Positions 6,988-23,639 of a stretch of 64,000 nucleotides of DNA are shown one piece after another. The stretch lies in the NCBI GenBank assembly GCA_024998565.1, contig JACOEM010000001.1, positions 394,485 to 458,484 on the forward strand, read 5' to 3'. The position numbers were made by a program, and so were the translations under genes. How positions within the stretch are numbered: the first letter of the stretch is position 1; each line of letters begins with the position of its first letter. A model generated the notes under the pieces. It made no database searches. It saw nothing but the letters and a program-made list of their open reading frames with translations, and was not told where the DNA came from. This stretch comes from Nitrospira sp. Its GTDB lineage: Bacteria; Nitrospirota; Nitrospiria; Nitrospirales; Nitrospiraceae.

Positions 6988-8967
6988 TCAGGGTGGCCCC
7001 TCCTTCTGCGCCGCCTGTTCCAATGCCATCACCCGCGACACAAAGACGTCCTCCAGGCTGAGCGTCCGCGTCCGCACCGATCCAACCGCAATCCCGGAGC
7101 GGGTCAGGACATCCCGAAGACGCCCCTCGTCGCGGCCCGGATCACGAGACAGCACATGGATCTTGGTGCCGAAGAGCGCCGCGCCGGCGAACCCGGCTGC
7201 CACCACATGCGCGAGTGAGACCCCCGGCTTGTCGACGACAACCTCCAGCAGTTGCCCGATGTCCCGCTCGACCTGTCTTTTCAGTTCCGCCGGCGTCCCC
7301 TCGGCCACGATGCGTCCGGCATACATGAGAGCCAGGCGATCGCAATGCTCCGCTTCGCTGAGATAGTGGGTAGTAATGAGAATCGCGACCCCCTCCTCGC
7401 GGGCCAACCGTGACAGCACTTCCCAGAACCGTCGACGGCCGATGGGGTCCACTCCCGACGTCGGTTCATCGAGAAACAGTACGCGGGGGCTGTGAACGAG
7501 TGCGCACCCCAACGCCAGACGTTGCCGCACACCCATGGGCAGGCGCCCCGTCCGATCATCCTCATAGCCGGTCAGGCCGGCCATCTCCACGATCCACTTC
7601 ATCCGTTGCTGCGCCTCGCGCCGAGCCAACCCGTAGATACCGGCAAAGAGTCGAATATTCTCGATGACGGTGAGATCCAGATAGAGGGAAAACGCCTGCG
7701 ACATGTAGCCGATGCGCTCCTTGATGGCACCACCCGCCGTGCGCATATCCGCGCCGGCTACACGGCCCTCACCGGCCGTCGGAGGCACAATTCCGGTCAG
7801 CATCTTGATGACGGTCGTCTTGCCCGCCCCGTTCGCGCCCAGCAACCCGAAGATTTCACCTTGCTTCATGTCAAAGCTGACCCGATCCACGGCTCGAAAC
7901 GAACCGAAGTCCCGAATGAGCTCCTTGGCCTCGACGGCCAGTCCGTCGAGCTGCTGCCTGCCCGTGGAGTGACGGGAGTGGTCCGATCCTGCCGACTCTG
8001 CCGGTTGTTCTTCTCGCTCCTTCAACAGCAGCGCCACCACGACATCTTCCAACTCCGGCTCATCCGTGTGGACGTGCTCGAGCGGTAAATTGTCCAGCGC
8101 GTGCCGGATCCCCGCGACGGCGGCTTCCGGCTCCCGTTCTGCGGTGAACACGTGCAGCGAGGGGCCCAGGGATTCGACTTGGGCATACCGGCGCTTCAGC
8201 CGAGCAACCGCTTCCAGTTGCGGGCTCGATTTGAAGGTGACGACAAGGCCCGGGACCAGTGAGTGGACTTCTGCAGGAGTGCCCGATGCCAGCACCCGTC
8301 CATGAGAGAGAAACGAGAGCCGGTGAAAGCGGGCCGCTTCGTCCATGTAGGCGGTCGACACCAGCGCGGTCATGCCCTTGTCCGCCTGCCATTCGGCGAG
8401 AATGGCCCAGAAGTCCCGCCGCGAGACAGGGTCGACCCCGGTCGTCGGCTCGTCCAGAATGGCCAGCTCCGGCTCATGGATCAGCGTACAGATCAAGCCG
8501 AGCTTTTGCTTCATTCCGCCCGATAGCTGCTTCATCAGCCTGCTGCGAAAGCGGTCCAGACGGGTGATCGCCAACAGCCGGAACTTGCGCTCGCGAAGCT
8601 CAGGCTCCGGCACCAGCCGCAGCCGGGCGAAGAAGTCGATGTTTTCTTCAACAGAGAGCTCAGGGTAGAGGTTGAGCCCCAACCCTTGCGGGAGAAATCC
8701 GATCCGCGGTTTCACCCGTTCCGCCGCCCGCTCGGAATCCACGAGGGTCCCGAACACTTCGGCGGATCCCCCGTCGTATCGCAACACCCCGGCGATCGCT
8801 TTCATCACACTGCTCTTGCCCGCACCATCCGGTCCGATGAGGCCGTAGATCTCACCCCTCTTCACGGTGAGGTCCAGGCGGTCGACCGCGAGATGCTGCT
8901 TGTAACGCTTGACGAAGCCGGACACACGGACAACCACCTCCGGTGACGATGCAGCGGGCTTCGTCAT
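6988..8967 (-). CDS. Tandem ABC transporter ATPase (YbhF-like)
   Basis: 659 residues with two ATP-binding domains in one chain. Domain 1 (about 10-235) has Walker A GPDGAGKSS, signature LSGGMKQ and Walker B LAILDEPTTG. Domain 2 (about 345-570) has Walker A GANGAGKTT, a degenerate signature LPMGVRQRLALG and Walker B VLFLDEPTSG. The altered second signature is normal for this subfamily. It energises the two ABC-2 permeases that follow. Its start overlaps the last four bases of the membrane-fusion gene (ATGA), a typical coupled operon. YbhGFSR-type exporters handle cationic or hydrophobic toxicants; the substrate here is unknown. Confidence 0.9.
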   Translation of the reverse strand: MTKPAASSPEVVVRVSGFVKRYKQHLAVDRLDLTVKRGEIYGLIGPDGAGKSSVMKAIAGVLRYDGGSAEVFGTLVDSERAAERVKPRIGFLPQGLGLNLYPELSVEENIDFFARLRLVPEPELRERKFRLLAITRLDRFRSRLMKQLSGGMKQKLGLICTLIHEPELAILDEPTTGVDPVSRRDFWAILAEWQADKGMTALVSTAYMDEAARFHRLSFLSHGRVLASGTPAEVHSLVPGLVVTFKSSPQLEAVARLKRRYAQVESLGPSLHVFTAEREPEAAVAGIRHALDNLPLEHVHTDEPELEDVVVALLLKEREEQPAESAGSDHSRHSTGRQQLDGLAVEAKELIRDFGSFRAVDRVSFDMKQGEIFGLLGANGAGKTTVIKMLTGIVPPTAGEGRVAGADMRTAGGAIKERIGYMSQAFSLYLDLTVIENIRLFAGIYGLARREAQQRMKWIVEMAGLTGYEDDRTGRLPMGVRQRLALGCALVHSPRVLFLDEPTSGVDPIGRRRFWEVLSRLAREEGVAILITTHYLSEAEHCDRLALMYAGRIVAEGTPAELKRQVERDIGQLLEVVVDKPGVSLAHVVAAGFAGAALFGTKIHVLSRDPGRDEGRLRDVLTRSGIAVGSVRTRTLSLEDVFVSRVMALEQAAQKEGPP

Positions 8968-10067
8968 CGAGGTTTCGACCAGGCCACGTCGTCCTTCCAG
9001 CGGATCACCGCGTCCGCCGGCAGACCCGGCGTCAGCCGATGGTCAGGATTCTCGGTGAGATAGAGCCGAACGGCATAGATCAGCTTGACCCGTTCGTCCG
9101 GAGTCTGGACTTCTTTCGGCGTGAATTCCGCTTTCGAGGCGATGTACCGGACCGTCGCCTCGAACGACCGGTCGGAAAACGCGTCCGTATGGATGCGGGC
9201 TGGCAAATCGAGGCGGACTTTACCGATTTGGAGTTCCGGAACATAGACCTGCAGGTAGAGGCGGTCGAGATCCACCAGTTCGAGCAGGGGCGCGCCGGTT
9301 GCCACGACCTCTCCGACGTCCACCATCCGAGTGGTCACCGTGCCGTTCGTCGGAGCCACGATCGTCAGATCGTCGAGTATGCTACGGGCCTCCGCGAACG
9401 TCGCATCTGCTTGGTCGCGTTGCCGTTCGAGCGCCGCGACCTCCGCTTCTTTCGATCGTATTCGTCCCCACCCCAATTCGGCCTGCGCGAGCTCCTTGCT
9501 CGCCTGGTCAAGGGCGGCTTTCGCCACGGCAATCTCCGTGACAGCCACCTTCCAGCGCGCCTCAGCCTGATCCACTTGCTGCTGCGACACCGCCTGCTCG
9601 GGAAGCAGGGATCGGATGCGGTCGGTGTCCCGGCGGGCTTCATATTCGACCGCCTGTGCCTTCCGGATGACGGCGCGCATGCTTGCGACTTTGGCGGCCA
9701 CTGCTTCGATGCTCAGAGGCACTTCGAGGTTCAGGACCGCAAGCGCGGTATGGGCCGCTTCCACCTGCGCCATCATGCTGTCCACCAACCGTGCCGCCTG
9801 ATCGACCTTCGCTCTCGTCTGGGCGTCGTCCAGCCGGATCAGCAGGTTGCCTTTGTGAACCTGGCTCCCTTCGCGCGCCGCCAGGTCTACGATGCGCCCG
9901 GGAAACTTGCTGGAAACGGTGACATGGTCTCCTTCAATGCGCCCATTGGCCTGGATCAGTCCCTCCGGGAGGCCGTCCTGCCACACCAGGCGATCGAGGA
10001 TCACGTATCCGACGATCAGCACCGACCCGAGGACGGCCGCCGCAATGGTCGAGGTCCGAAGGGTCAC
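8964..10067 (-). CDS. HlyD/YbhG-type membrane-fusion protein
   Basis: 367-residue periplasmic adaptor. It has an N-terminal membrane anchor (IAAAVLGSVLIVGYVIL, about residues 9-25), a lipoyl half-motif GRIEGDHVTVSSKFPGRI, a long alpha-helical hairpin rich in Gln/Ala/Glu/Arg (about 75-220), then the returning half-motif VAPTNGTVTTRMVDVGEVV and a beta-barrel domain. It would link the inner-membrane permeases to an outer-membrane channel that is not in this window. It starts only 3 bases after the Spy-like lipoprotein gene, so chaperone and exporter are probably co-expressed. Confidence 0.9.
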   Translation of the reverse strand: MTLRTSTIAAAVLGSVLIVGYVILDRLVWQDGLPEGLIQANGRIEGDHVTVSSKFPGRIVDLAAREGSQVHKGNLLIRLDDAQTRAKVDQAARLVDSMMAQVEAAHTALAVLNLEVPLSIEAVAAKVASMRAVIRKAQAVEYEARRDTDRIRSLLPEQAVSQQQVDQAEARWKVAVTEIAVAKAALDQASKELAQAELGWGRIRSKEAEVAALERQRDQADATFAEARSILDDLTIVAPTNGTVTTRMVDVGEVVATGAPLLELVDLDRLYLQVYVPELQIGKVRLDLPARIHTDAFSDRSFEATVRYIASKAEFTPKEVQTPDERVKLIYAVRLYLTENPDHRLTPGLPADAVIRWKDDVAWSKPR

Positions 10068-10070
10068 GAC

Positions 10071-10511
10071 TCAGTGGTCTCCGTACCGGTCCATCCACTT
10101 GCGAAGGTGCTCCACGGCTTCGGCCTTCTGTTCAGGCCGCAAGGTCGCATGCCATTCCGCCAATTTGGGCAACACGCGCTGCATCAGGCGGGTCTGTCCC
10201 GCTTGGTGCTGCTCAAACAACCGGGCCAGCTTGGCCTGATCCAGCCGGTCACTCTGGACCTGAGCGATGACCTCTTCCATGGTCGCCTTGCGCTCCTTCT
10301 CCGACTCCGCGCGTACGGCCATCGCTTCGTCCTTCACGGCGGCCAGCTTGGCCTTCTGCTGTTCATCGAGGTCCAAATGTTTGGCGATCTTCCCCGTCAT
10401 CCAGTCGGCTCGCTCCGTCGGCGTATGGTGCCGGTGACAACCGGCACCCACAAGCGCCCCGGCAATGACCAACGCCCCGATCGCCACCCTGACCGTACTC
10501 TGCATCTTCAT
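10071..10511 (-). CDS. Spy/CpxP-like periplasmic lipoprotein, copy 2
   Basis: 146 residues, the paralog of the 1718-2158 product with the same length and layout: signal peptide, lipobox LVGAGC, His cluster CHRHHTP, helical KHLDLDEQQKAKLAAVKDE and closing LRPEQKAEAVEHLRKW. Long stretches are also conserved at DNA level, so the duplication is fairly recent. It leads the ABC exporter operon (next gene 3 bases downstream), which links this copy to efflux or envelope stress. GGAGGGCAGC precedes the ATG. Confidence 0.82.
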   Translation of the reverse strand: MKMQSTVRVAIGALVIAGALVGAGCHRHHTPTERADWMTGKIAKHLDLDEQQKAKLAAVKDEAMAVRAESEKERKATMEEVIAQVQSDRLDQAKLARLFEQHQAGQTRLMQRVLPKLAEWHATLRPEQKAEAVEHLRKWMDRYGDH

Positions 10512-10604
10512 GCTGCCCTCCTTGGTGATTGCGGTGATGTCCGAGCGACTCTTCCCCTCACATTGAATCAGGAGTCGGAGGGGACATGGTAGGGGCTCCC
10601 ACCA

Positions 10605-12695
10605 TTATTCCCTAGGGCGAGAGAGGCCCAGTTTCTTGATTTTCGAGGTGAGGGTGGTGCGTTTGAGGCCCAAGCGAGCAGCCGCCCCATCCGGCCCGCC
10701 GATCACCCAATGCGTGTCGCGCAAGACGCGCAGGACCTGCTCGCGTTCCGCATCCTGCAGGGTAGAGCTCGGCGCCGGAGGCTGCCGCGCTTCAATTTTG
10801 AGTTCCAAGAGCGGCACTTGCAAGTGGGTTCCCTGGGTCAGAATTACCGCGCGCTCGACCAGGTTCTCCAGCTCCCGGATGTTTCCCGGCCAGTGATAGC
10901 GGGACAGGGCCTCCAACGTCGGCCCGGGAATCGTTTCGATGTGCTTCTTCATGCGGGCGGCATAATGCTGCGTGAAATAGCGCACGAGCACCGGGATATC
11001 CTCACGACGCTCACGGAGCGGCGGCAGGGTAATCGGAAACACGTTCAGCCGGTAGTACAAATCGCTTCGGAACTCACGGTCCTCCACCAGCTTGGCCAGA
11101 TCCCGATTCGTGGCGGCAATCAGACGAATGTCCACGCGAATCGTCCGCGTACTGCCCAGGCGTTCGAACTCCTGCTCCTGCAGAACACGAAGCAGCTTGG
11201 ACTGCAGTTCCAATGGAATTTCGCCCACCTCATCCAGAAAGATCGTCCCGCCATGCGCCAATTCGAACCGGCCGACTTTCTGGGCGATGGCCCCGGTGAA
11301 GGCCCCCCGTTCATGCCCGAACAACTCGCTTTCCAGCAGCCCTGTCGGAATCGCGGCACAATTGAGCTTCACGAAGGTCCGCTGGTTCCGTCCGCTGAGC
11401 CGGTGAATCGCCCTGGCAATCAGTTCTTTCCCCGTGCCGGTCTCGCCCTGAATCAACACGGTCGCCTGGGTCGGCGCCACGATCTCGACTTGCCCCAACA
11501 CCTGCTTCAGCGCGCGGCTGTCACCGATGATGTCGTCGAATTTGTGCTCAAGGCGAATTTCTTCTTCCAGATACAACTTCTCTTCGGTCAATCGATCTTT
11601 GAGTTCGGTGATCTCCTGATAGGCCAGGGCATTGTCCACCGCGAGGGCAATCTGTCCGGCCACCTGACTCAGAAACTCGACGTCCTGTTCGCCGAACGCC
11701 TGCTCCTGCCGGCTGGCCAGATTGAGACAACCGATCACGCGGTCACGCGACAACAGGGGCAGGGAACACATGGAGTGGAAGCCTTTCATGACCAGGAGCT
11801 GAGGCACGGCGTGCGAAAACGCCTTCAGGTCCGGCCGATTATTGGCGACCGCGGGGCGCCTCCGCTCCAACGCCAGGCCGGCCAGAGAACCGGCAACATC
11901 CGACACCGCCCCCTCGGTCAACGCGCCCCGGTTTTCAGGAAAATCCAAGGCATGGAGGCGTACGCGGCCGTTCTTGCCGTCGCACAGAATCAGGCTGGCA
12001 TACTCTTGCGGCACCATCTCGCGCAAACAGAGACTCACTGCGCTGAACACATCCCGCAGATCGAGCTTGGACACCATCGTATTGGTCATGCGAAGCAGCA
12101 GACTGAATCGATCCCGCTGCCGTTCCACATCTCGCCTGGCCGCCGCCGCCGCTTCGCGGTTGAGCACATTTTCCACGGCCACGGCCACCTGCCGCCCGAT
12201 CTGTTGCATCAGCTCCAGATCTGAGACTCGGTATGCCTCCTCCTCGACACTTAAAAATGCCAACGCGCCTAACTGTCGCGCTGCAGAAGTCAGGGGAACC
12301 AGGCAGCAGGACTGCACCCCATCCTCACGCATCAACGCGATGACCTTCGGCCAGCGATGTTCCTCGTCCAGATTATTGATCAGCAACGGTTGCTGGGTTT
12401 TCCACACAAGGCCGGCCGGTGTATCGCTGGGGGTGGGTTCATGGCCGCCGATGATGTCGGCCGGGACATTCGCTTGCAGCACATGCAGGCGCATGACGCC
12501 GCGTTGCGCATCGTAGAGGGAGAGGCCGACAAAGTTGACGGGCACGAGCAGCGGCAGCAGGCGGGCGAGATCCTGCACCAGCCCCTGCAAGTCAGCATGG
12601 CTTGCAATGGCTTCCACCACCTGCAGCAGAGCGCCATATCGCTCACTGTCTCCTTGCATCGCCTGTGGGGTTGGTAGGGATGGCCGGTCGTTCAT
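10605..12695 (-). CDS. Sigma54-dependent activator with two GAF domains (FhlA-like)
   Basis: 696 residues. Two GAF sensor domains (about 30-180 and 200-365) are joined by a coiled coil to an AAA+ domain (about 395-625) with Walker A GETGTGKE, the sigma54-contact loop GAFTGA and Walker [13 protein letters not shown] Fis-type helix-turn-helix closes the protein ([20 protein letters not shown], about 670-690). Such proteins bind upstream enhancers as oligomers and open sigma54 promoters after a small-molecule or redox signal. It is the last gene of the minus-strand run that starts with the flavocytochrome locus, whose upstream region has a matching sigma54-type promoter and a distal inverted repeat. 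rpoN is not in the window. Confidence 0.93.
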
Positions 12696-12849: not shown

Positions 12850-13374
12850 TTAATGCCCGCCTCCTCCGATGTCGGCCCGGTGCATGTCAATGACCGTTCC
12901 CGCTTCATTCAGTTCAACAGTGACCAATTCACCTTCTTCCATTCCCTTTGTCTTCTGTCCTTCTTCCGCCAGCGGAAACACCTGCTCGCCGTCAGGCGTT
13001 TGCAGCTTGATCTGCTTTTTCATCCGACCGACGTGGATGAGTTTACCGGTCACCTGTCGATGCGTTCCTTCCTTCCCTTTGAGGTGCATGTCAACGATGT
13101 AGTTGTTCTCATCCAACACAACGATCACTTCATCCCCCGCTTTGAACGGCTCCTGCCCGTGACGCCGCGCCATATTTTCATTGAGCTGATGTATCGCACC
13201 GTTCGGTGTCGTCACCACGAGCGCACCGGCTTTTTTCGTCACGACGCTGGTGAATTCCGTGTGGCCGCGCGCAAGATGCTCCGCCCCGGTCGCCGCATGG
13301 GCGACAGGTGAGGCAATGGAGAGCGCGGCCAGTACCGTCGCCAATGCGAGACATCGAAACGTCTGACGATTCAT
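12850..13374 (-). CDS. Exported protein with the same beta module as the 2614 protein
   Basis: 174 residues with a signal peptide (LALATVLAALSIASPVAHAA). The mature part carries one N-terminal module (TPNGAIHQLNENMA, then VIVVLDENNYIVDMHLKG) and one fuller module (TPDGEQVFPLAEEG, then LVTVELNEAGTVIDMHR). These match the modules of the 305-residue protein at 2614-3531. A Gly-rich tail (GGGGH) ends it. AGGGAG precedes the ATG. It follows the alcohol dehydrogenase by 38 bases and precedes the sigma54 activator. Exported and probably soluble; role unknown. Confidence 0.7.
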   Translation of the reverse strand: MNRQTFRCLALATVLAALSIASPVAHAATGAEHLARGHTEFTSVVTKKAGALVVTTPNGAIHQLNENMARRHGQEPFKAGDEVIVVLDENNYIVDMHLKGKEGTHRQVTGKLIHVGRMKKQIKLQTPDGEQVFPLAEEGQKTKGMEEGELVTVELNEAGTVIDMHRADIGGGGH

Positions 13375-13412: not shown

Positions 13413-14543
13413 TTACGAGCCGAGACGGACGATCGGCTTGATTGTGACGCCCTTCTCGCTGTCTTCCGCCGCCTGATTGATCTGATCAAGGCTGTAAAAT
13501 TTCACCAGTTTATCGAAAGGGAAACGCCCCTGCTGATAGAGTTCGACGAGGCTTGGAATAAACAGATCCGGCACGCTGTCGCCTTCAATGATGCCGATAA
13601 TCCGCTTGCCGGTCGTCATAACCCCGTTCACATCGAAGCCGGCTTCGGTGCCCAACGCCGGAGCGCCGACGATACCGCACACACCTTTGATCGCCAAGGC
13701 GTCGATGGCCTGGCGCAGCACCGCCGGACGCCCGCTCGATTCGAGCGTGAAATCGGCGCCGCCGCCGGTGATTTGTCGCACGGCCTCGACAGGATCGGTC
13801 TCGCGGCTGTTCACCGTATGGGTGGCGCCGAGTTCCTTGGCCAGTGCAAGCCGCGACGGGACGACATCGGCGGCAATGATGGTGGTCGCACCGGCCACAC
13901 GCGCAGCCATCACGGCGCTCAAGCCGACGGCTCCGCCACCGAACGCGGCAAAGCTGCGGCCTGGCCTGACCTTCAAGGCGTTCATGACGGCGCCCGCGCC
14001 GGTTTGGATGCCACAGCCGAGAGGGCCGAGTAATTCAAGCGGCGCGTCGGCCGGAACCTTGACGACGTTCCGCTCGTGAGCAAGCGCATAGGTGCCGAAC
14101 GAGGACTGTCCGAAGAAATGATCGTGGATCGCTCCCTGCTTGTCATGCGTGGCGGTGCTGCCGTCTTCACGGGCGCCGCCGAAATTCAACGGGTAAAAAT
14201 TCTCGCAATAGGTCAGGTCGCCGTTCAGGCAGGGTTTGCAGTGGCCGCACCACATGTAGGTCAACACGACATGGTCACCCGGTGCGATTTTTTTGACGCG
14301 GCTGCCGACCCGTTCCACGATACCGGCCCCTTCATGGCCAAGGACAACCGGTAACGGCACGGTGTAGAGCTGATCGCGCGCGACCATGTCGGTGTGACAC
14401 ATGCCGGTCGCAACGATCCGAATCAAAGCCTCGTCGGGACGCGGTTCTTCAAGAGTGAGGGTCTCGACCTGGAACGGCCCGCCCTTTTTGCGGACCACCG
14501 CCGCCTTGATCTCTCTGGTTTGTATCTTGGGTATGTTGGTCAT
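13413..14543 (-). CDS. Zinc-dependent alcohol dehydrogenase (aryl/benzyl alcohol type)
   Basis: 376-residue medium-chain dehydrogenase. The catalytic-zinc ligands are visible in [11 protein letters not shown] and [12 protein letters not shown]. The structural-zinc Cys cluster is [15 protein letters not shown], and the NAD-binding turn is [11 protein letters not shown]. Sequence style matches benzyl/aryl alcohol dehydrogenases (XylB/AreB). Next to a PCMH-like flavocytochrome it could oxidise the hydroxybenzyl alcohol product to the aldehyde. It starts 58 bases after the flavoprotein gene. The substrate is inferred from context only. Confidence 0.85.
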
Positions 14544-14601
14544 CTGTTACTCCTTCATGCGCGATCGGCATCGCATCGACTGAACAGAACGAGTCGCCGG
14601 G

Positions 14602-16146
14602 CTATCGAATGCCGGATTTGCCCGGCGCAAGAATCCCATTGGGATCAAGCGCCTTCTTGAGCGTCTTATGGACGTGGCGTTGCACCGGACCATAGGTGTG
14701 CGCGACCTTATCCATGAAGGCCGTGTTGACCCGGTAGGTGCCGTACCCTTCATTTGAAAACTCTGTCAGCAACTCATCGAAACACTGGTAGGCGGCCTTC
14801 GTCATGGCCGGATCCGTTTTGTCATAGAGCACATCCACGATGTGGTGCATGTCCCGCATGCCGACGATGAACTCGCCGGAATAATCCAGTCCGTACTTCC
14901 CCAGAATACGTTTGGTCATGGCCATCTGTTTGAGCGTCTCGCTCCCGCGCGCCTGCGAGACCGGTGCGAACCACATGGAGCCGCCGCCGCCGCGCCAGTT
15001 GTAGAGCGAGAATTCCTTGAGGGTCATGTCGCCGCGCATGAGCGCCGCGCGATATTGGAAGGCCGGATCGTCGCCCGCCTCTTGCTCCGTCAGAATTTTT
15101 GCCTTGCCGGATTTGCTGAACGCGTCCGTCACAATCTTCCAATTCACGTCGATCTGTTCCTGCGTGCCATAGAGTGCCGCGTAGACGTTCCAGACTCCCA
15201 GCTTGTGGTCCTTCATGATCTGCCGCACCGCGTCATCGGTGATCGCCCCGGGCCCGGTCACATAGTCGCTCCGCTTGGCCTTCGTGGGCGCTTCATAGAG
15301 CGCGTGGGCGATCACGATCGCATTGGGGATGACGCCGCTGATGCGAAGCGGCCTGATGGTCTCGACGATTTCCACGATATCGTCTTCGTTCTCGTACTGA
15401 ATGACGAACGGCTTGAAGGCCGGAGGGGCCGGCATCAGCCAGAATCCGAACTTAGTGACGATGCCATAATTGGATTGGGTGAAGATCCCGTCGAGGTACG
15501 GTCCGTATCCCCACTTGAAGACCTGCCAGGTGTTGGACTTGGGCAGCGAGCCCATCCCGGTGCGGAGAACCTCGCCGTTGGCCAGAACCACTTCCATCCC
15601 GCAGGCAAAGAGGAAATGTTCTCCATAGGGCGTATACCCGACGCCTCGATCCAACGTATTGCCGGTCGGTCCGGCAATGGCGGAAGGGGCGGGACAGGAG
15701 AGCCACAGCGGGTACTTATGTTCCTGGATGTAATCGTAGAGCTGCTTGTAGGTGACGCCGGGCTCGACGAGGGCGAAACAGAGATCCGGATCGACTTCCA
15801 AAATACGGTTCATCTGTTTCAGATCGAGCACCACCTGACCCCGTTCGGCCGGCGCGGCAGACCCATAACCGAAGTTCCGGCCGGTCGAGATCATCCAGAT
15901 CGGGACTTTGTATTGGTTGCAGACCGCGACAATCTTCTGAATCTGCTCCACTGTCGTGGCGAGGAGCGACGCGGACGGGGTATGGTCCGCATCCGGGACC
16001 GGCATCATGGTTTTGATGTAAGGGGCAAGCTGTTCCGCCGTGACGAGGACGGAGTCCTGACCTAGTATGCGGCGGAACTCCGCAATCGCCGCCGCGAATG
16101 ACTTCTCCGAAACGCCTTTCGGTAATGCGATAAATTTGCTGGCCAT
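14602..16146 (-). CDS. FAD-linked oxidase, p-cresol methylhydroxylase flavoprotein-like
   Basis: 514 residues of the vanillyl-alcohol oxidase / 4-cresol dehydrogenase family. The PP-loop FAD domain has ISTGRNFGYGSAAP (about 107-120). The cap carries LYNWRGGGGSMWFAPVSQAR and KYGLDYSGEFIVG. The C-terminus GTYRVNTAFMDKVAHTYGPV then DPNGILAPGKSGIR is closer to PchF than to VAO. PCMH binds FAD through a tyrosine ether; several Tyr are present here but the linking one cannot be fixed by eye. No signal peptide is evident. A PchC-like cytochrome is encoded upstream, fitting an alpha2-beta2 flavocytochrome oxidising para-substituted phenols. Eugenol hydroxylase is an alternative. Confidence 0.87.
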   Translation of the reverse strand: MASKFIALPKGVSEKSFAAAIAEFRRILGQDSVLVTAEQLAPYIKTMMPVPDADHTPSASLLATTVEQIQKIVAVCNQYKVPIWMISTGRNFGYGSAAPAERGQVVLDLKQMNRILEVDPDLCFALVEPGVTYKQLYDYIQEHKYPLWLSCPAPSAIAGPTGNTLDRGVGYTPYGEHFLFACGMEVVLANGEVLRTGMGSLPKSNTWQVFKWGYGPYLDGIFTQSNYGIVTKFGFWLMPAPPAFKPFVIQYENEDDIVEIVETIRPLRISGVIPNAIVIAHALYEAPTKAKRSDYVTGPGAITDDAVRQIMKDHKLGVWNVYAALYGTQEQIDVNWKIVTDAFSKSGKAKILTEQEAGDDPAFQYRAALMRGDMTLKEFSLYNWRGGGGSMWFAPVSQARGSETLKQMAMTKRILGKYGLDYSGEFIVGMRDMHHIVDVLYDKTDPAMTKAAYQCFDELLTEFSNEGYGTYRVNTAFMDKVAHTYGPVQRHVHKTLKKALDPNGILAPGKSGIR

Positions 16147-16164
16147 GCTGATCCTCCTGTCCGC

Positions 16165-17040
16165 CTAAATATCCATCACGAAGGAGACGAATCGTTGTGT
16201 GGGTGGCAACGAATGGGGAGTGAATGCCCGATGGACAAACGCGCGACTGGAACAGGACTCCGGAATCCGGCCCCCGAGAGCCGAAGCCGCCACGGCATAC
16301 CCCACGGATTCCACCCACTGTGGCGACTGCTGCGACACGGCTTTGCCTGCAGAGAGGTGGGGTGGGATGGGCGTCCATCCCTCAACTCCAGTCAGGCCCA
16401 GCTGTGCACATCCTTCCAAGAGCGACAGTCCTGAACAGTGGAGATGCATCGCGTCGGATCCGGAAGACCGATAGGAGGCAAACCCCGGTGCAGACCAACT
16501 GGTTGGTTTGCTCGCGGCCGATGATCCGTCAAGGAAGCTTTCGATGATCGAAAAACTTTCACCCGCATCGATGAGTCGAGAAGCCAGAACAGCACCGGCG
16601 CCCTGAGCGGGTGAGGCCGCAAGCCACGTATGCCGAAGCGGACAGGCGTCGTCCTTCACCGAGGCATGAGCACCGACTGAGAGCAGACGGGCTCCGGCCG
16701 TCCGCGCCAGTTCCTGGAAAACCGCCGCACTCGCATCGTCCATGACGGCGATCCAGCGCGCGCCTTTCGACTGTTCGAATAACGAGACCAGCTTGCCGGG
16801 ATCGGACAGGAGTCCACCGTTGACCTTCATCGTCTCAAGCCCGTCGTATTTCACTTCCTGACAGGCCACGCGCACACCGTTCGCAAACCGGCCATCCACA
16901 TTGGCGCCTCCCAGGAAGAGCAGACACCGCTTGGCCTTCTTCGCCGGCTCGTCCGCAAACGTCCACGACGGAGTCCCGAGCGCCAGCAGGGCTCCTCCCG
17001 CCAACAAACCTTTCATCAGGTTGCGTCGATCGATCTCCAT
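16165..17040 (-). CDS. Tat-type exported protein of unknown function in the flavocytochrome operon
   Basis: 291 residues. The N-terminus MEIDRRNLMKGLLAGGALLAL is a twin-arginine-type signal (RRNLMK, then a hydrophobic run), so export in folded form is likely. The mature part has alternating beta/alpha segments (RCLLFLGGANVDG, then WIAVMDDASAAVFQEL, then ARLLSVGAHASV) and several Cys (CPLRHTW, HLHCSGLSLLEGC) but no motif I recognise. It sits between the cytochrome and flavoprotein genes, so it may help maturation or electron transfer. ATG 17040 is 14 bases after the cytochrome stop. Confidence 0.65.
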   Translation of the reverse strand: MEIDRRNLMKGLLAGGALLALGTPSWTFADEPAKKAKRCLLFLGGANVDGRFANGVRVACQEVKYDGLETMKVNGGLLSDPGKLVSLFEQSKGARWIAVMDDASAAVFQELARTAGARLLSVGAHASVKDDACPLRHTWLAASPAQGAGAVLASRLIDAGESFSIIESFLDGSSAASKPTSWSAPGFASYRSSGSDAMHLHCSGLSLLEGCAQLGLTGVEGWTPIPPHLSAGKAVSQQSPQWVESVGYAVAASALGGRIPESCSSRAFVHRAFTPHSLPPTQRFVSFVMDI

Positions 17041-17054
17041 GGCGTGAGCCCTCC

Positions 17055-17396
17055 CTACTGATTAGCTGCAGCTTTGGAAACATACTCAGCCACCTTCGCC
17101 AGCGACTCGTCGTCGATTTCGGCCGCGCGGAAGGATGGCATGGCCCGGTTGCCGTGTCGGACGATGAAGGTGATGTAGGCGGGAGCAAGGCCACGGCCGC
17201 GGATGGTTGGGCCGACCCTGGCCTCATGACAAAACGCGCAGACCTTCGCATAAACTTCGGCCCCGTCTTTCCACCGAAACCCAGGCTCGGGAGTCTCCTG
17301 AGATGTGGCCCCTGCGATGCGTACCACATTCCCGAGCAGCACGAATGCCGTCAGGATCACGGCCGACACAATCCATACTGCTTTTGGCTCTTGCAT
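17055..17396 (-). CDS. Periplasmic c-type cytochrome, PchC-like
   Basis: 113 residues: an N-terminal signal or anchor helix (VWIVSAVILTAFVLLGNVV), one haem-attachment site CAFCH (about 53-57), and a distal Met in NRAMPSFRAAEI. The pattern VGPTIRGRGLAPAYITFIVR then AMPSF and VAEYVS matches the small cytochrome subunit of p-cresol methylhydroxylase. It would accept electrons from the flavoprotein encoded two genes downstream. It is the first gene of the operon, with GGAGGAGATGCC before the ATG and a sigma54-type promoter upstream. Confidence 0.85.
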   Translation of the reverse strand: MQEPKAVWIVSAVILTAFVLLGNVVRIAGATSQETPEPGFRWKDGAEVYAKVCAFCHEARVGPTIRGRGLAPAYITFIVRHGNRAMPSFRAAEIDDESLAKVAEYVSKAAANQ

Positions 17397-17478
17397 GGCA
17401 TCTCCTCCCTATCCAATCCGACCTCTACTTTGCCGCAACCCACGGGGCTCCTCCCTCGGACTTACCGGTAGCAGTCGT

Positions 17479-17494
17479 TGCATATCCCAAGCCA
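17479..17494 (-). promoter_or_regulatory. Sigma54-type promoter for the flavocytochrome operon
   Basis: On the minus strand the sequence TGGCTTGGGATATGCA has the invariant GG and GC separated by 10 bases and matches 9 of 12 informative positions of the sigma54 consensus (TGGCACG-N4-TTGCW). The predicted start point near 17468 leaves a 5' leader of about 70 bases before the cytochrome ATG at 17396. A sigma54 activator gene closes the same run of genes. Seen in sequence; activity is inferred. Confidence 0.55.
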
Positions 17495-17648
17495 GTCACT
17501 AGGCGGCGGGAAGGTCATGCAACGGCCCATGGCCGATCAGATGAATGGCGCGTTTTTCACCGAGACATGGCCAACAGGTCACACTTCAGATCGGGAGGAG
17601 GCAGAACCGAACGATTTGGGGGACGCCGGTGTCGGCAGGCGGGGACAT

Positions 17649-17681
17649 CGTGGCCTGCGCTTCAGAAGAACGCAGACCACG
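17649..17681. promoter_or_regulatory. Inverted repeat, possible enhancer of the sigma54 promoter
   Basis: CGTGGCCTGCG (17649-17659) and CGCAGACCACG (17671-17681) form an 11-bp inverted repeat with one mismatch and an 11-base spacer. It lies about 155-190 bases upstream of the -24 element at 17493, a normal distance for an activator site, and just beyond the stop of the upstream oxidoreductase gene (17703). It could instead be the terminator of that gene, though no U-run follows. The rest of 17397-17702 holds no gene that I can support. Confidence 0.4.
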
Positions 17682-17702: not shown

Positions 17703-18443
17703 TCAGTAACCCGAAAACTTTTCAGTGCGAATATCGCTGTCTTCGATGCGGGCCTCTTTGAGCATCGTCCGCAGTGCGCCGACCATACCCGGCGGACCGA
17801 CCACGTAATAGATCGGCTTCTCCACATTCACGAGATGTCTGGAGAGCAATGCCGCATTGAGGAATCCCGTCTCGCCCTGCCAGGATCGGGAAGATTTCGC
17901 GGGTTCGGTCATGGTGCCCACGAAGCGATAGTGGGGATTCTTGTCTTGCAAGGCCTGCAGCTCCTCCAGGAACGGCGCATCCTCCGGTCGCCGGTTGGAG
18001 TAAAACAGCACCATGGGGTGCGGCGACCGCTGCATCGCCGCCTGCACCACCATGCTGCGAAACGGGGTAATGCCGATCCCGCCTGCCAGGAAGACGGCAG
18101 GGCGGGTCTGGTCGGCATGCAGGACCAATTTTCCGAACGGTCCTTCCATCTGAACAGTGGAACCGAGCGGCATACGCTGCAGTTCGCGCTTGAAGGCGGT
18201 ATCGCGCAGCCGGGTCGCCACCATCAACGTGGATTCCTGCGGTGCGCTCGCAATGGAAAAGGCTCTGGTGTTGCCCGCTGCATTGGTCTCAGAGGGGTGG
18301 GGCAGCGTCAGATCGACGAACTGACCCGGCGTGAATACAAACTGCGTCGGCTTGTCGAAGTAGAACGCCATCGTCCCTTCCGCCACCAACCGCCGCTCTG
18401 TCAGCCTGATCGAATACCCGTTCTCGCTCGCCGCCTCACCCAT
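17703..18443 (-). CDS. Ferredoxin-NAD(P) reductase-type flavoprotein
   Basis: 246 residues of the ferredoxin reductase superfamily. An N-terminal FAD barrel has RAFSIASAPQ (about 80-90), and a C-terminal nucleotide domain has AGGIGITPFRSMV and a closing VGPPGMVGALR. It has no Fe-S or haem domain of its own, so it needs a partner carrier. The gene 45 bases upstream encodes a dual CDGSH Fe-S protein that could play this part. It ends a minus-strand run. Confidence 0.82.
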   Translation of the reverse strand: MGEAASENGYSIRLTERRLVAEGTMAFYFDKPTQFVFTPGQFVDLTLPHPSETNAAGNTRAFSIASAPQESTLMVATRLRDTAFKRELQRMPLGSTVQMEGPFGKLVLHADQTRPAVFLAGGIGITPFRSMVVQAAMQRSPHPMVLFYSNRRPEDAPFLEELQALQDKNPHYRFVGTMTEPAKSSRSWQGETGFLNAALLSRHLVNVEKPIYYVVGPPGMVGALRTMLKEARIEDSDIRTEKFSGY

Positions 18444-19046: not shown

Positions 19047-19171
19047 GCAGGATGCGCAAAATGGCCGTCCAGCAAGGCCGCAGCGAGCGAAGAGGCGAAT
19101 CGTACTCGTGCGGTACGGTGAGCCGCGAAGCGATGCGAGAACGCCGCTGGCGGTCTTTTTCCGCATCCTGC
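19047..19171 (-). repeat. 125-bp terminal-inverted-repeat element, copy B
   Basis: Starts GCAGGATGCGCAAAATGGCC and ends with the inverted counterpart (GGTCTTTTTCCGCATCCTGC). The interior has AGCAAGGCCGCAGCGAGCGA and GTACTCGTGCGGTAC. Read on the minus strand it follows copy A (63871-63998) segment by segment. Its minus-strand left end begins within the stop codon TAG (19171-19173) of the VOC gene, forming TAGCAGG, as copy A does after EttA. Confidence 0.7.
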
Positions 19172-19617
19172 TAGAGCGACAGCGGCTTGATGGGCGCAAG
19201 GACGGCCGACGGATTGCTTTTCCACAAGCCTTCGTCCGCGTCCACATACACCTCGACCTCATTGCCGTCCGGATCCCGCAAGTACAAACTCTGACTCACC
19301 GTGTGGTCGCTCATCCCGTCGATGGAGACACCGGCGGATTCCAGCTCCCGCTTCGCCGCCCTCAGCTCATCGAGGCTGTCGCCCACTTTGATACCGATAT
19401 GGTAGAGGCCTCGACGTCGCCCTGACGGCGGCCCCGGCGCATCGCCGACTTGAATCAGCAGCAGCTCATGATGCGTGCGGCCGGATGTGAGCGCCGCCGC
19501 CGCGCCATTGAAAATTCTCCCCACTTCCTGGAATCCAAGCAGATCGCGATAAAATGCCAGCGAACGTCCAAGATCTTTCACATAGAACACGACATGGCCG
19601 AGATACTGCGCTTTCAT
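19171..19617 (-). CDS. VOC-family (glyoxalase/dioxygenase-fold) protein
   Basis: 148 residues with one vicinal-oxygen-chelate unit of two beta-alpha-beta3 modules: LGHVVFYVKDLGRSLAFYRD then HHELLLIQVG, and LYHIGIKVGDSLDELRA then LRDPDGNEVEVYVD. Candidate metal ligands are His8, His50 and the Glu in NEVEVY. It resembles ring-cleaving dioxygenase-like proteins such as CatE but its activity is unknown. Its start overlaps the previous gene by four bases. The stop TAG is the first bases of repeat copy B. Confidence 0.8.
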   Translation of the reverse strand: MKAQYLGHVVFYVKDLGRSLAFYRDLLGFQEVGRIFNGAAAALTSGRTHHELLLIQVGDAPGPPSGRRRGLYHIGIKVGDSLDELRAAKRELESAGVSIDGMSDHTVSQSLYLRDPDGNEVEVYVDADEGLWKSNPSAVLAPIKPLSL

Positions 19618-21209: not shown

Positions 21210-21668
21210 TCACAAACGCTTCTCTTCCAGATCATACACATCGAAATACACGTAGACGGGGCGGTGACTCGGCACATACTTCGGGATGTAGTCCTCCATA
21301 TACGCCTGCACCGACGGCGCCATCTCGGACAGTCGCAGGTCCCGCATCTTGTTGTTCCACTCAATGATCGCCTGCCGGTCCTGTACCTTGCTGTGCGCCT
21401 TAAGCCACGCACCCACGTCCTCATCGGTGGCTCCTGTCGCCACGAACTCCTTGAACTGCTCCGGGGAGATCCCTGTGAACGCGAACAACAGGCCCGCCAG
21501 CGAACAGGGCCAATAGTTGTACTCCCCGTTGATGCCGAGTAGAAACGCCCGGCATTTGTCCACGCATCGTGCGCCGATGACATAGCCCCCCAGCATTTCC
21601 CGCGGGCTGCGAGGATAGGTCTTGGTGAGATCTTTCGCAAGCGATCGCACCTTCTTTAAGTCAGGCAT
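21210..21668 (-). CDS. DUF5069-type protein
   Basis: 152 residues, cytoplasmic, matching the DUF5069 pattern: LAKDLTKTYPRSPREMLGGY, then ARCVDKCRAFLLGINGEYNY, then LRLSEMAPSVQAYMEDYIP. The family has no known activity. Its ATG (21668) lies inside the end of the VOC gene (stop at 21661), an 8-base overlap pointing to coupled translation. AAAGGA precedes it by 8 bases. Confidence 0.75.
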   Translation of the reverse strand: MPDLKKVRSLAKDLTKTYPRSPREMLGGYVIGARCVDKCRAFLLGINGEYNYWPCSLAGLLFAFTGISPEQFKEFVATGATDEDVGAWLKAHSKVQDRQAIIEWNNKMRDLRLSEMAPSVQAYMEDYIPKYVPSHRPVYVYFDVYDLEEKRL

Positions 21669-22110
21669 CCTGTCGTTCCTTTCCTTGTCGAGCGCGCGAG
21701 GGCTTGGAGAATGTAATGCCCGCCTTCTGAACCTCCTGATAGGGGAGGAGCCAGACCAGCGATTCATCCGACAGGTCGCCGACCTGAATGCGGTTTCCCC
21801 ACGGGTCGCGGAAATCGCACCGGAAATGCGGCTCCATCTTCAGCTTGTACTTCCTGGTGAGCTTGCGCCGGACTTCTTTGATCTGCTCCGCATCACGCAC
21901 CATCAACCCGAAATGCTTCACGCGATCCGGCTGCAGTTGCTCGACCTCAAAAATCGCCATGAATTGGTGTTCACCCAGTTTGCACCAGGCCGCGCCTTCT
22001 CCGCCTTGCAACATCTTGAGTCCGAACACGTCTGAATAGAACTTCACGGCTTTCTTGGCGTCGGTCACTTCGATCACGATGTGATTACATCCGTAGACTT
22101 GCACCGCCAT
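21661..22110 (-). CDS. VOC-family protein (glyoxalase/bleomycin-resistance fold)
   Basis: 149 residues. Two half-sites: YGCNHIVIEVTDAKKAVKFY with GEHQFMAIFEVE, and VKHFGLMVRDAEQIKEVRRK with DFRDPWGNRIQVGDL. The His in CNHI, the His in VKHFG and Glu or Asp residues near the strand ends could bind a metal. Distinct from the VOC protein at 19171. It starts 12 bases after the DsbA-like gene and overlaps the DUF5069 gene. Confidence 0.8.
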   Translation of the reverse strand: MAVQVYGCNHIVIEVTDAKKAVKFYSDVFGLKMLQGGEGAAWCKLGEHQFMAIFEVEQLQPDRVKHFGLMVRDAEQIKEVRRKLTRKYKLKMEPHFRCDFRDPWGNRIQVGDLSDESLVWLLPYQEVQKAGITFSKPSRARQGKERQDA

Positions 22111-22122
22111 CGCAGGACCTCC

Positions 22123-22758
22123 TTACCCGGTAACCTGTTTGATCGCGGAGACGAACGTCTCCACCGGCTGGGCGCCGGAGAGCGCAGCCTTTCCATTCAG
22201 CACGAAATAGGGGACCCCTCTGATACCCAGCTGATGGCCATGGGCCTCCTCCTGCCGCACGGCATCCACACCCTCCTGCGCCTGCAGCAGACGAGCGACC
22301 GCCTCTCCATCCAATCCGGCCCGGACGGCGAGGGAAACCAGTATCTCAGCCTCACCGATAGGGAATCCCTCCGTGAAGTACCCGTGAAACAGTTCTTCGA
22401 CCACCTCATCCTGACGGCCCTGCTGCTGAGCGAACCAGATCAGTCGATGGGCATCGAACGTGTTCGGTGTCCGCGCGATCCGGTCAAACGCGAACTCGAT
22501 GCCCACACTCGTTCCCACTGCTGCCACGCGGTCCTGGATCGCCTTCATTTCGCCGGGCCCGCCGAACTTCGTTTCGAGATACACCCGTCGATCCATGCCG
22601 GCCTTGGGCATGGTCGGATTGAGCTGAAACGGGCGCCAGAATACGTGCGCCTGCGCCTGTACCGATTCCAGCGCCTGTTCCAGCCGCCGTTTGCCGATGT
22701 AACACCAGGGGCACACCACGTCCGAATACACATCGACCGTGAGCGCCTGACCGGTCAT
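22123..22758 (-). CDS. DsbA-family oxidoreductase (FrnE-like)
   Basis: 211 residues of the FrnE/2-hydroxychromene-2-carboxylate isomerase branch of the thioredoxin fold. CPWC is at about 17-20 (YSDVVCPWCYIGKRRLE), a helical insertion fills the middle, and the conserved cis-Pro loop is GIRGVPYFVLNGK. No signal peptide is present, so it is cytoplasmic, unlike true DsbA. FrnE proteins act in oxidative and electrophile stress. Its start overlaps the pirin gene by four bases (ATGA). Confidence 0.88.
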   Translation of the reverse strand: MTGQALTVDVYSDVVCPWCYIGKRRLEQALESVQAQAHVFWRPFQLNPTMPKAGMDRRVYLETKFGGPGEMKAIQDRVAAVGTSVGIEFAFDRIARTPNTFDAHRLIWFAQQQGRQDEVVEELFHGYFTEGFPIGEAEILVSLAVRAGLDGEAVARLLQAQEGVDAVRQEEAHGHQLGIRGVPYFVLNGKAALSGAQPVETFVSAIKQVTG

Positions 22759-23639
22759 GACAAATGCCCCATCTTTCCCGCCTGGTAGTCGTGCACGGCC
22801 TGGATAATTTCGTCGCGCGTGTTCATCACGAACGGCCCGTACCGGGCGATCGGCTCGGCAATCGGTTCGCCGCTCATCACAAGGATGGTCGCATCCTGCT
22901 TCGCCTCCACGACGACGTGCGCGCCTCGCTGACCGAACAGCGCGATTTCTACTTCCTGCACCGGCTGCGACCCGTTCACGACGACCTGTCCGTGCAGCAC
23001 GAACAGGGACGAATTATATCCCTCGGGCAAGTCGAGTTCAGTCCTGTGGCCCGCCTTCAACCGCAGGTCGTAGAGGTGGACCGGGCTGAAGGTCTTGGCC
23101 GGACCTTTCACCGCGCGAAATTCTCCGGCGATCACTCGTACCCGGCCGGCTCCTCCATCGAGCTCGACCGCAGGAATCTCCGCATCGACCAGCGTTTGAT
23201 AACGGGGCGCGGTCATCTTGAACGCCTTCGGCAGATTGACCCACAGCTGAATCCCCTCCAACAGGCCGCCCTGCTTCGCGAATTCCTTCTCATGCAACTC
23301 TTCGTGCACGACACCCGAGGCCGCCGTCATCCACTGCACGTCACCGGGGCCGATAACGCCGCCGCTGCCGGTCGAATCACGATGCGCCACCTTGCCGTGA
23401 TACATGATGGTGACCGTCTCAAAGCCTCGATGGGGATGCTCGCCGACCCCGAGCTGCCGGTCGGTCGGCGGGAACTGCTGGGGCCCCAGATAATCGAGCA
23501 TTAAAAAGGGCGACAGCTGCTCCTCGACTCCGGCGCCGGGAATCATGTTGCGGACCGGAAACCCGTCCCCGACCATATGATGAGATCCGGCCTGATACAC
23601 TCCGACAAGATCTTTCGTGATGGATGTGTCTGTTCGCAT
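22755..23639 (-). CDS. Pirin-family protein
   Basis: 294 residues, a bicupin. The N-terminal cupin has the metal motif GEHPHRGFETVTIMYHGKV (His, His and Glu), later HEELHEKEF, and the C-terminal cupin includes LFVLHGQVVV. Some pirins are quercetinases and others regulate redox enzymes. ATG 23639 (MRTDTSITKD) follows AGAAAGGAGG; an upstream in-frame extension lacks a start context. It belongs to the palindrome-controlled operon beginning at 24978. Confidence 0.88.
   Translation of the reverse strand: MRTDTSITKDLVGVYQAGSHHMVGDGFPVRNMIPGAGVEEQLSPFLMLDYLGPQQFPPTDRQLGVGEHPHRGFETVTIMYHGKVAHRDSTGSGGVIGPGDVQWMTAASGVVHEELHEKEFAKQGGLLEGIQLWVNLPKAFKMTAPRYQTLVDAEIPAVELDGGAGRVRVIAGEFRAVKGPAKTFSPVHLYDLRLKAGHRTELDLPEGYNSSLFVLHGQVVVNGSQPVQEVEIALFGQRGAHVVVEAKQDATILVMSGEPIAEPIARYGPFVMNTRDEIIQAVHDYQAGKMGHLS

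Follow-up and report, generated by a model that had tools for sequence, protein, structure and literature searches.

A p-cresol methylhydroxylase-type operon of Nitrospira and its distribution among nitrifying bacteria of two phyla

The described system closest to the locus analyzed here is the p-cresol methylhydroxylase (PCMH) of Pseudomonas putida (1dii/1wve), the genes of which presumably lie in the order pchC-pchX-pchF. In Aromatoleum aromaticum EbN1, the Cmh/PcrSR system shares the PCMH-type first step and feeds degradation via 4-hydroxybenzoate, and sigma54 promoters and regulators are reported for its PCMH genes in the accessible part of one study (PMC10715001). The FAD glucose dehydrogenase offers another parallel: a small protein secreted by the twin-arginine translocation (Tat) pathway serves as the hitchhiker subunit needed by an FAD subunit, which works with a heme c subunit (PMC6719666, accessible part). 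The locus analyzed here was found in a window (the whole stretch of DNA under study, 64,000 nucleotides; contig JACOEM010000001.1, positions 394,485 to 458,484) belonging to a 4.13-Mb genome of Nitrospira sp., the encoded proteins of which are closest to those of Candidatus Nitrospira defluvii. It consists of four tandem genes, located exactly where an earlier note on this DNA had placed them:

17055-17396, minus strand: PCMH-type cytochrome c subunit, PchC-like, with a Sec-type N-terminus
16165-17040, minus strand: X, a Tat-signal protein of unassigned family in the PchX position, proposed export partner of the flavoprotein
14602-16146, minus strand: PCMH flavoprotein subunit, PchF-like
13413-14543, minus strand: zinc-dependent aryl alcohol dehydrogenase (adh)

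Judging from their sequences, these genes form a PCMH operon of the pchC-X-F type (cytochrome-X-flavoprotein) together with an aryl alcohol dehydrogenase. The flavoprotein matched PCMH (1dii/1wve) with 799 bits and an E value of about 1e-239, 330 of the 507 residues aligned with 1dii being identical (65%), whereas the next-ranked oxidoreductases scored at most 568 bits, the eugenol/allylsyringol oxidases at most 439, and vanillyl alcohol oxidase at most 383; the identification as PCMH made in the earlier note is borne out by these scores, rather than by a tree. The residues Y384, A154, and P155, given as the signature of PCMH (PMC7617285, Table 1, accessible part), correspond to Y382, the tyrosine of the tyrosyl-FAD, and to A153 and P154, the Ala/Pro pair at the flavin N5. 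This signature was conserved in all 47 nitrifier rows (46 of them different) of the alignment used for the tree described below. The other positions that we take to belong to the active site were also conserved in all 47 rows, apart from R512, which is replaced by K in 46 of them (the remaining row is gapped) and in 23 of the 37 other rows. The cytochrome, which carries a CxxCH motif and a downstream Met and matches Cytochrome_CBB3 (1.7e-19), found its best solved match in the PCMH partner 1dii_C (E 7e-20), as the earlier note had proposed, and the heme motif and the Met were present in 80 of the 81 cytochrome matches. The dehydrogenase is closest to 5tnx (1e-161), followed by the benzyl alcohol dehydrogenase 1f8f (3e-145). 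The sequences thus indicate that the enzyme is almost certainly of the PCMH type.

The locus therefore resembles that of P. putida in the identity of the flavoprotein, the cytochrome partner, and the signature residues, and it resembles the Pseudomonas loci L062, L068, and L071 in that the X gene is located between those of the cytochrome and the flavoprotein. Unlike P. putida PCMH, it has the adh gene directly after that of the flavoprotein, and no V4R activator was seen alongside. X was longer in the nitrifier loci read (291-346 aa) than in the Pseudomonas, Azoarcus, and Aromatoleum loci read (132-231 aa). The sensor and the downstream genes of the EbN1 system were not seen in the Nitrospira locus.

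Nitrifiers are treated as lithoautotrophs, and the earlier note had regarded such an enzyme as unexpected in a nitrifier-like chromosome. This view is not supported, since the operon is present in many nitrifiers. Genome contigs were scanned with the window's own flavoprotein as the query, so that the scan favors close relatives, and the best 80 of the 121 related stretches were kept. Among these best 80 loci, 43 encode a flavoprotein that is 80-98% identical to the query and 37 one that is at most 75% identical. According to their record titles, the 43 loci come from Nitrospira/Nitrospirae, Nitrosomonas, Nitrosospira, Nitrosovibrio, and Nitrotoga, apart from three without a nitrifier name: L008 and L039 occur in genomes carrying HAO, and L022 (Gallionellaceae) groups with Nitrotoga. 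On this basis, all 43 loci can be assigned to nitrifier lineages, L022 putatively. Carriers of the operon include a strain of N. europaea (L028) and strains of N. multiformis (L029 and L065). The genome G049, which consists of one contig, carries both AMO and the operon, which identifies it as comammox. The operon is therefore common to nitrifiers of two phyla but not universal, and the surprise lies in its being shared across the nitrifier guild rather than in its rarity. Searches of the open-licence PMC literature yielded nothing on PCMH in Nitrosomonas or Nitrospira, on pchX in connection with cresol, or on pirin in N. europaea; in a paper retrieved for p-cresol and nitrifiers, cresol is named in the references only, and the accessible text of a paper on a Nitrotoga isolate (PMC6050957) makes no mention of cresol, aromatic, or phenol. 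One record among the 43, L007 (CAADGJ010000379.1), is labelled Nitrosospira; its genome (G037) was placed in the genus of the window, and the label is probably wrong.

The frequency of the operon varies from family to family. In the family of N. europaea, a copy at least 82% identical was present in 44 of the 118 genomes and a copy at 67% in four; in Gallionellaceae (134 genomes), four genomes carry a copy at 84-86% and one a copy at 72%. In Nitrospiraceae (156 genomes), 12 genomes carry an intact copy, two a split or broken one, and three remnants. Flavoprotein genes broken by internal stops or reduced to fragments were seen at L090 (G035), L097 (G033), L098 (G084), and L099 (G047), which indicates that loss of the operon occurs as well. 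With regard to AMO, which was detected in 66 of them, the 118 genomes of the N. europaea family divide into 31 with both AMO and PCMH, 13 with PCMH only, 35 with AMO only, and 39 with neither (p 0.021). This test is weak, since AMO was not matched in the assemblies of N. europaea ATCC 25978 (G156) and N. supralitoralis (G241), nor HAO in the latter. Two of the 35 genomes with AMO only (G171 and G174) carry a PCMH copy at only 67%, which perhaps belongs to another enzyme lineage.

A careful tree was built with 84 rows (83 different, L041 and L094 being identical), leaving out duplicates, short rows, and rows with internal stops (L023 and L090). All 47 nitrifier rows fall into a single clade (100/100, stem 0.22), which spans Nitrospira, one comammox genome, Nitrosomonas, Nitrosospira, Nitrosovibrio, and Nitrotoga. 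The neighbors of this clade were betaproteobacterial in a quick tree built earlier, with a support of only 80. The Nitrospira rows fall into two groups on the PCMH tree, but their union was not rejected (approximately unbiased test, p 0.398), so that one transfer cannot be told from two, while in a quick tree of the dehydrogenase, 15 Nitrospira rows cluster together (SH-aLRT 91; L030 was dropped because of a stop). The two trees together would fit transfer between Betaproteobacteria and Nitrospirota, in either direction and in one or more events. Taken together, the sequences make it very likely that the operon forms a nitrifier-restricted lineage which has been transferred across phyla.

The gene content of the operon is also largely constant. 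When the open reading frames (ORFs) of 41 nitrifier loci were clustered, the flavoprotein and X were recovered from every locus, the dehydrogenase from 37 loci, and the cytochrome from 33. An adh at least 60% identical was located at most 1200 bases after the flavoprotein in 40 of the 42 nitrifier loci with enough sequence (all but L029 and L033), vs. only one of the 35 others (L057, where it is adjacent; in L049, L055, and L075, the dehydrogenase match is weaker or distant). The median identity between the window and the proteobacterial nitrifiers amounted to 87% for the flavoprotein (n=35), 83% for the dehydrogenase (n=33), 55% for the cytochrome (n=34), and 39% for X (n=35), which indicates that the flavoprotein and the dehydrogenase are far more constrained than the cytochrome and X. 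A second group of Nitrospira loci (L041, L091, L092, L094, and L095) shows the reverse of the proteobacterial pattern, the dehydrogenase being 89-93% identical to that of the window and the flavoprotein only about 80%, as a result either of faster change or of gene replacement. Between L022:4679-8760 and L027, both from Gallionellaceae, a nucleotide similarity of 92% spans the operon and ends at its edges, as if it were a movable unit. Two operon-type flavoprotein copies occur in the genome of Nitrosomonas sp. JL21 (L011 and L014, apparently G186) and in G250, and the non-nitrifier loci L054, L066, and L067 carry two PCMH flavoprotein genes each.

The earlier note had pointed out that the flavoprotein of the window lacks a visible signal peptide, and this was found to hold generally: a hydrophobic N-terminus was detected in none of the 80 flavoproteins from PCMH loci with at least 900 bases of upstream sequence (three further loci were too short). 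In 77 of these 80 loci, a Tat-like ORF is located at most 2 kb upstream of the flavoprotein gene, vs. two of the 80 in a reverse-strand control. The three misses are L018, where X was found by ORF clustering, L067, where the stretch is filled by a tandem copy, and L054, where a cytochrome gene but no X gene immediately precedes the first flavoprotein copy; in L082, the order is X-cytochrome-flavoprotein. Since none of the flavoproteins has a hydrophobic N-terminus, a carrier is needed, and the proposal that the Tat protein plays this part is well motivated by its near-constant position. By analogy with the FAD glucose dehydrogenase, X is probably the Tat export partner (hitchhiker) of the flavoprotein, and its regular presence suggests how PCMH, which has no signal peptide, reaches the periplasm. 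X might instead be a periplasmic maturation factor involved in FAD insertion or flavinylation, the flavoprotein being exported in another way. The co-occurrence of X and PCMH fits this role equally well, and the compact alpha/beta fold predicted for X by AlphaFold2 (pTM 0.83) is consistent with it; but a carrier is still required, and export by the Tat route means that X is already folded when it crosses, so that we regard a maturation role as unlikely. Contrary to the hitchhiker of the FAD glucose dehydrogenase, X shows neither a Pfam family beyond the Tat signal nor a clear fold match. Among 38 X proteins, 12 matched the Tat signal model of Pfam and the only other hits were four single weak matches to unrelated families; the gamma subunit family of the FAD glucose/gluconate dehydrogenase, considered as a candidate, was not matched by any of the 38. 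With the model of X, Foldseek returned nothing at E <= 0.001 (best 0.011), and VIA-align gave Z values up to 8.6, a level rated common, with no clear relative among the folds listed. A search of PHROGs gave no match for X, and in a read-through X-PCMH model (pTM 0.50) the FAD domain itself was poorly modelled.

The earlier note had also linked the locus to sigma54, to an inverted repeat, and to an activator at the end of the gene run. The features concerned are as follows:

10605-12695, minus strand: FhlA-like sigma54 activator with GAF domains, the link of which to the operon is not supported
12850-13374, minus strand: exported protein of 174 aa and of no known family, relatives of which occur in Nitrospira-type loci among those searched
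17479-17494, minus strand: weak sigma54-like -24/-12 candidate (TGGCTTGGGATATGCA)
17649-17681, minus strand: inverted repeat forming a strong hairpin 3' of the stop codon of the upstream gene, conserved in three closely related Nitrospira, two of which show paired changes

The activator is indeed on the same strand at the end of the run, and the gene for the 174-aa protein, which had not been named previously, lies in between. The sigma54-type site was found at the position indicated but is not beyond chance, TGGC-N8-TGCA occurring three times in the window vs. 2.9 expected. The 11-bp arms of the inverted repeat are present at 17649-17659 and 17671-17681, with one mismatch, and the repeat as such exceeds what chance would give: a half-site pattern designed to match the two arms was found twice in the window vs. 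0.34 expected, only at the repeat. It is unlikely that sigma54 and the FhlA-like activator, acting on this repeat, control the locus. In favor of such control, rpoN is present in the genome, the site and the repeat are aligned in four of the seven Nitrospira loci (the window, L003, L004, and L005), the sigma54 consensus score of L004 was equalled by only two of 200 shuffles, and the PCMH genes of Aromatoleum are reported to have sigma54 promoters and regulators. Against it, the score of the window was equalled by 13 of the 200 shuffles (10 each in the case of L003 and L005), no aligned site was found in L006, L007, and L041, and in other nitrifiers the best scores occurred at scattered positions, four of them (L019, L025, L026, and L038) being as high as that of the window. 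The repeat begins some 20 bases past the stop codon of the upstream gene, with a folding energy of -28.4 kcal/mol (z -5.6); L003, L004, and L005 retain the hairpin, with paired changes in L003 and L005. Lacking a T run, it cannot be called a terminator, but the sequence could be a 3' hairpin just as well as a binding site. In the window, the activator has GAF domains and no V4R, whereas those near the PCMH loci L082 and L043 have V4R/XylR_N domains, and only three of the 43 nitrifier loci (L003, L004, and L005; flanks up to 6 kb) yielded an activator of the FhlA type. The regulatory link proposed in the earlier note is therefore weak.

As regards the mechanism, the flavoprotein would bind FAD in the cytoplasm and be carried in the folded state through the Tat pore by X as a hitchhiker, and would then pair in the periplasm with the Sec-exported cytochrome. 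The enzyme would abstract a hydride from a 4-alkylphenol at its para side chain, and addition of water to the quinone methide would give an alcohol and then an aldehyde or ketone. By way of the c-heme, the electrons may reach the cytochrome c pool of the periplasm and a terminal oxidase. The cytosolic dehydrogenase may interconvert the aryl alcohol and aldehyde. In this way, nitrifiers would clear inhibitory phenols while saving their electrons, most likely not for growth. A nitrifier PCMH operon, exchanged across phyla, with a product exported by X that serves to clear phenols, is on balance the explanation we favor, with some reserve.

The genes and pathways found around the operon bear on its role. 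A homolog of LigB, WrbA, FMN reductase, or pirin was present near the operon in 27 of the 41 nitrifier loci, vs. none of the 37 others. Genes of these kinds are typical of quinone and electrophile stress. In the eight carrier genomes examined, pobA was not found above the cut-off (weaker matches in four). The absence of pobA above the cut-off, together with the reductase, VOC, LigB, and pirin genes nearby, makes phenol removal with delivery of electrons to cytochrome c likelier than growth; that phenol removal is the main role is, from these sequences, conceivable at slightly less than even chances. The operon might instead provide an auxiliary electron donor, 4-alkylphenols feeding electrons in at the level of cytochrome c and detoxification being a side effect. 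The cytochrome-linked periplasmic design fits a chain starting at cytochrome c, and the pobA result is compatible with this explanation, which we nevertheless hold to be rather improbable, as the neighboring genes look like electrophile/quinone handling and not like energy metabolism, and the presence of the operon is patchy. Ordinary aromatic catabolism, via 4-hydroxybenzoate and ring cleavage for carbon, is still less probable: of the 41 nitrifier loci, 18 have an aldehyde dehydrogenase near adh and 19 a LigB-family gene, but the pobA result argues against it, 40 of the 43 nitrifier loci have flanks without a match to a sigma54-type activator, and no operon-type aldehyde dehydrogenase was found in the genome of the window (best match 35%). 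For the latter reason, the locus is not self-contained as a full pathway, as the earlier note had described it. Lastly, p-cresol is a by-product of ThiH, and the operon might clear that formed by the cell's own thiamine synthesis; however, ThiH was not found above the cut-off in any of the eight carriers (weaker matches in six; no match in the genome of the window), so that this source of the substrate is disfavored and can hardly be credited.

Several observations weigh against phenol clearance by a nitrifier operon. Many nitrifiers have no such operon: an intact copy occurs in 12 of the 156 Nitrospiraceae genomes, and within the N. europaea family, 35 of the 66 genomes with AMO have no copy of at least 82% identity. 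In the Nitrospiraceae locus L110 (G097, 8472-11946), which was outside the 42-locus count, an aldehyde dehydrogenase comes after the flavoprotein, and no match to adh was found. The comparison of neighboring genes is biased, the queries having been nitrifier proteins, and aldehyde dehydrogenase homologs were present in 26 of the 37 non-nitrifier loci, which fits a catabolic context there. In addition, according to the accessible part of one study (PMC13056722), N. europaea and N. multiformis were inhibited by methyl 3-(4-hydroxyphenyl)propionate (MHPP), an AMO inhibitor of the p-alkylphenol type, and did not measurably degrade it, which speaks against a specific link with plant inhibitors. MHPP is thus unlikely to be a rapidly used substrate, at least over the duration of that assay, in which the operon may or may not have been expressed.

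Plant-made phenolic inhibitors are studied as a means of slowing nitrification in farmland (PMC13056722, accessible part). The distribution of the operon suggests that nitrifiers have inherited or exchanged it as a means of coping with phenolic compounds. Tentatively, it may be a trait of the nitrifying guild, exchanged among ammonia oxidizers, nitrite oxidizers, and comammox of two phyla because the phenols of their common habitats threaten nitrification and can supply electrons at cytochrome c; these phenols might, as tentatively, include plant or humic nitrification inhibitors. If so, a phenol-oxidizing operon nearly confined to the nitrifiers of two phyla would show how some strains may resist phenolic inhibitors.

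On the same strand as the operon, the window carries VOC, Rieske-FMN_red, DUF5069, DsbA, pirin, NmrA, and DoxX genes. The neighbors located upstream are as follows:

17703-18443, minus strand: FAD/NAD(P) oxidoreductase, the upstream neighbor
19171-19617, minus strand: VOC protein (glyoxalase/dioxygenase fold), with an 87% identical protein near the operon in the comammox locus L107
20066-21187, minus strand: Rieske + FMN_red fusion protein; the operon of L107 has a 78% identical protein in its vicinity
21661-22110, minus strand: second VOC protein
22123-22758, minus strand: DsbA-family protein, presumably FrnE-like
22755-23639, minus strand: pirin, 56% identical to the pirin adjoining a Nitrosospira operon (L065)

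In L107, where the Rieske-FMN_red and VOC genes are thus kept, an FMN reductase gene directly precedes that of the cytochrome. As regards the 174-aa protein, a search of PHROGs gave no match, and diverged tandem relatives of it occur near the operon in some Nitrospira (L004:9484-10392 and L006:2361-3284).

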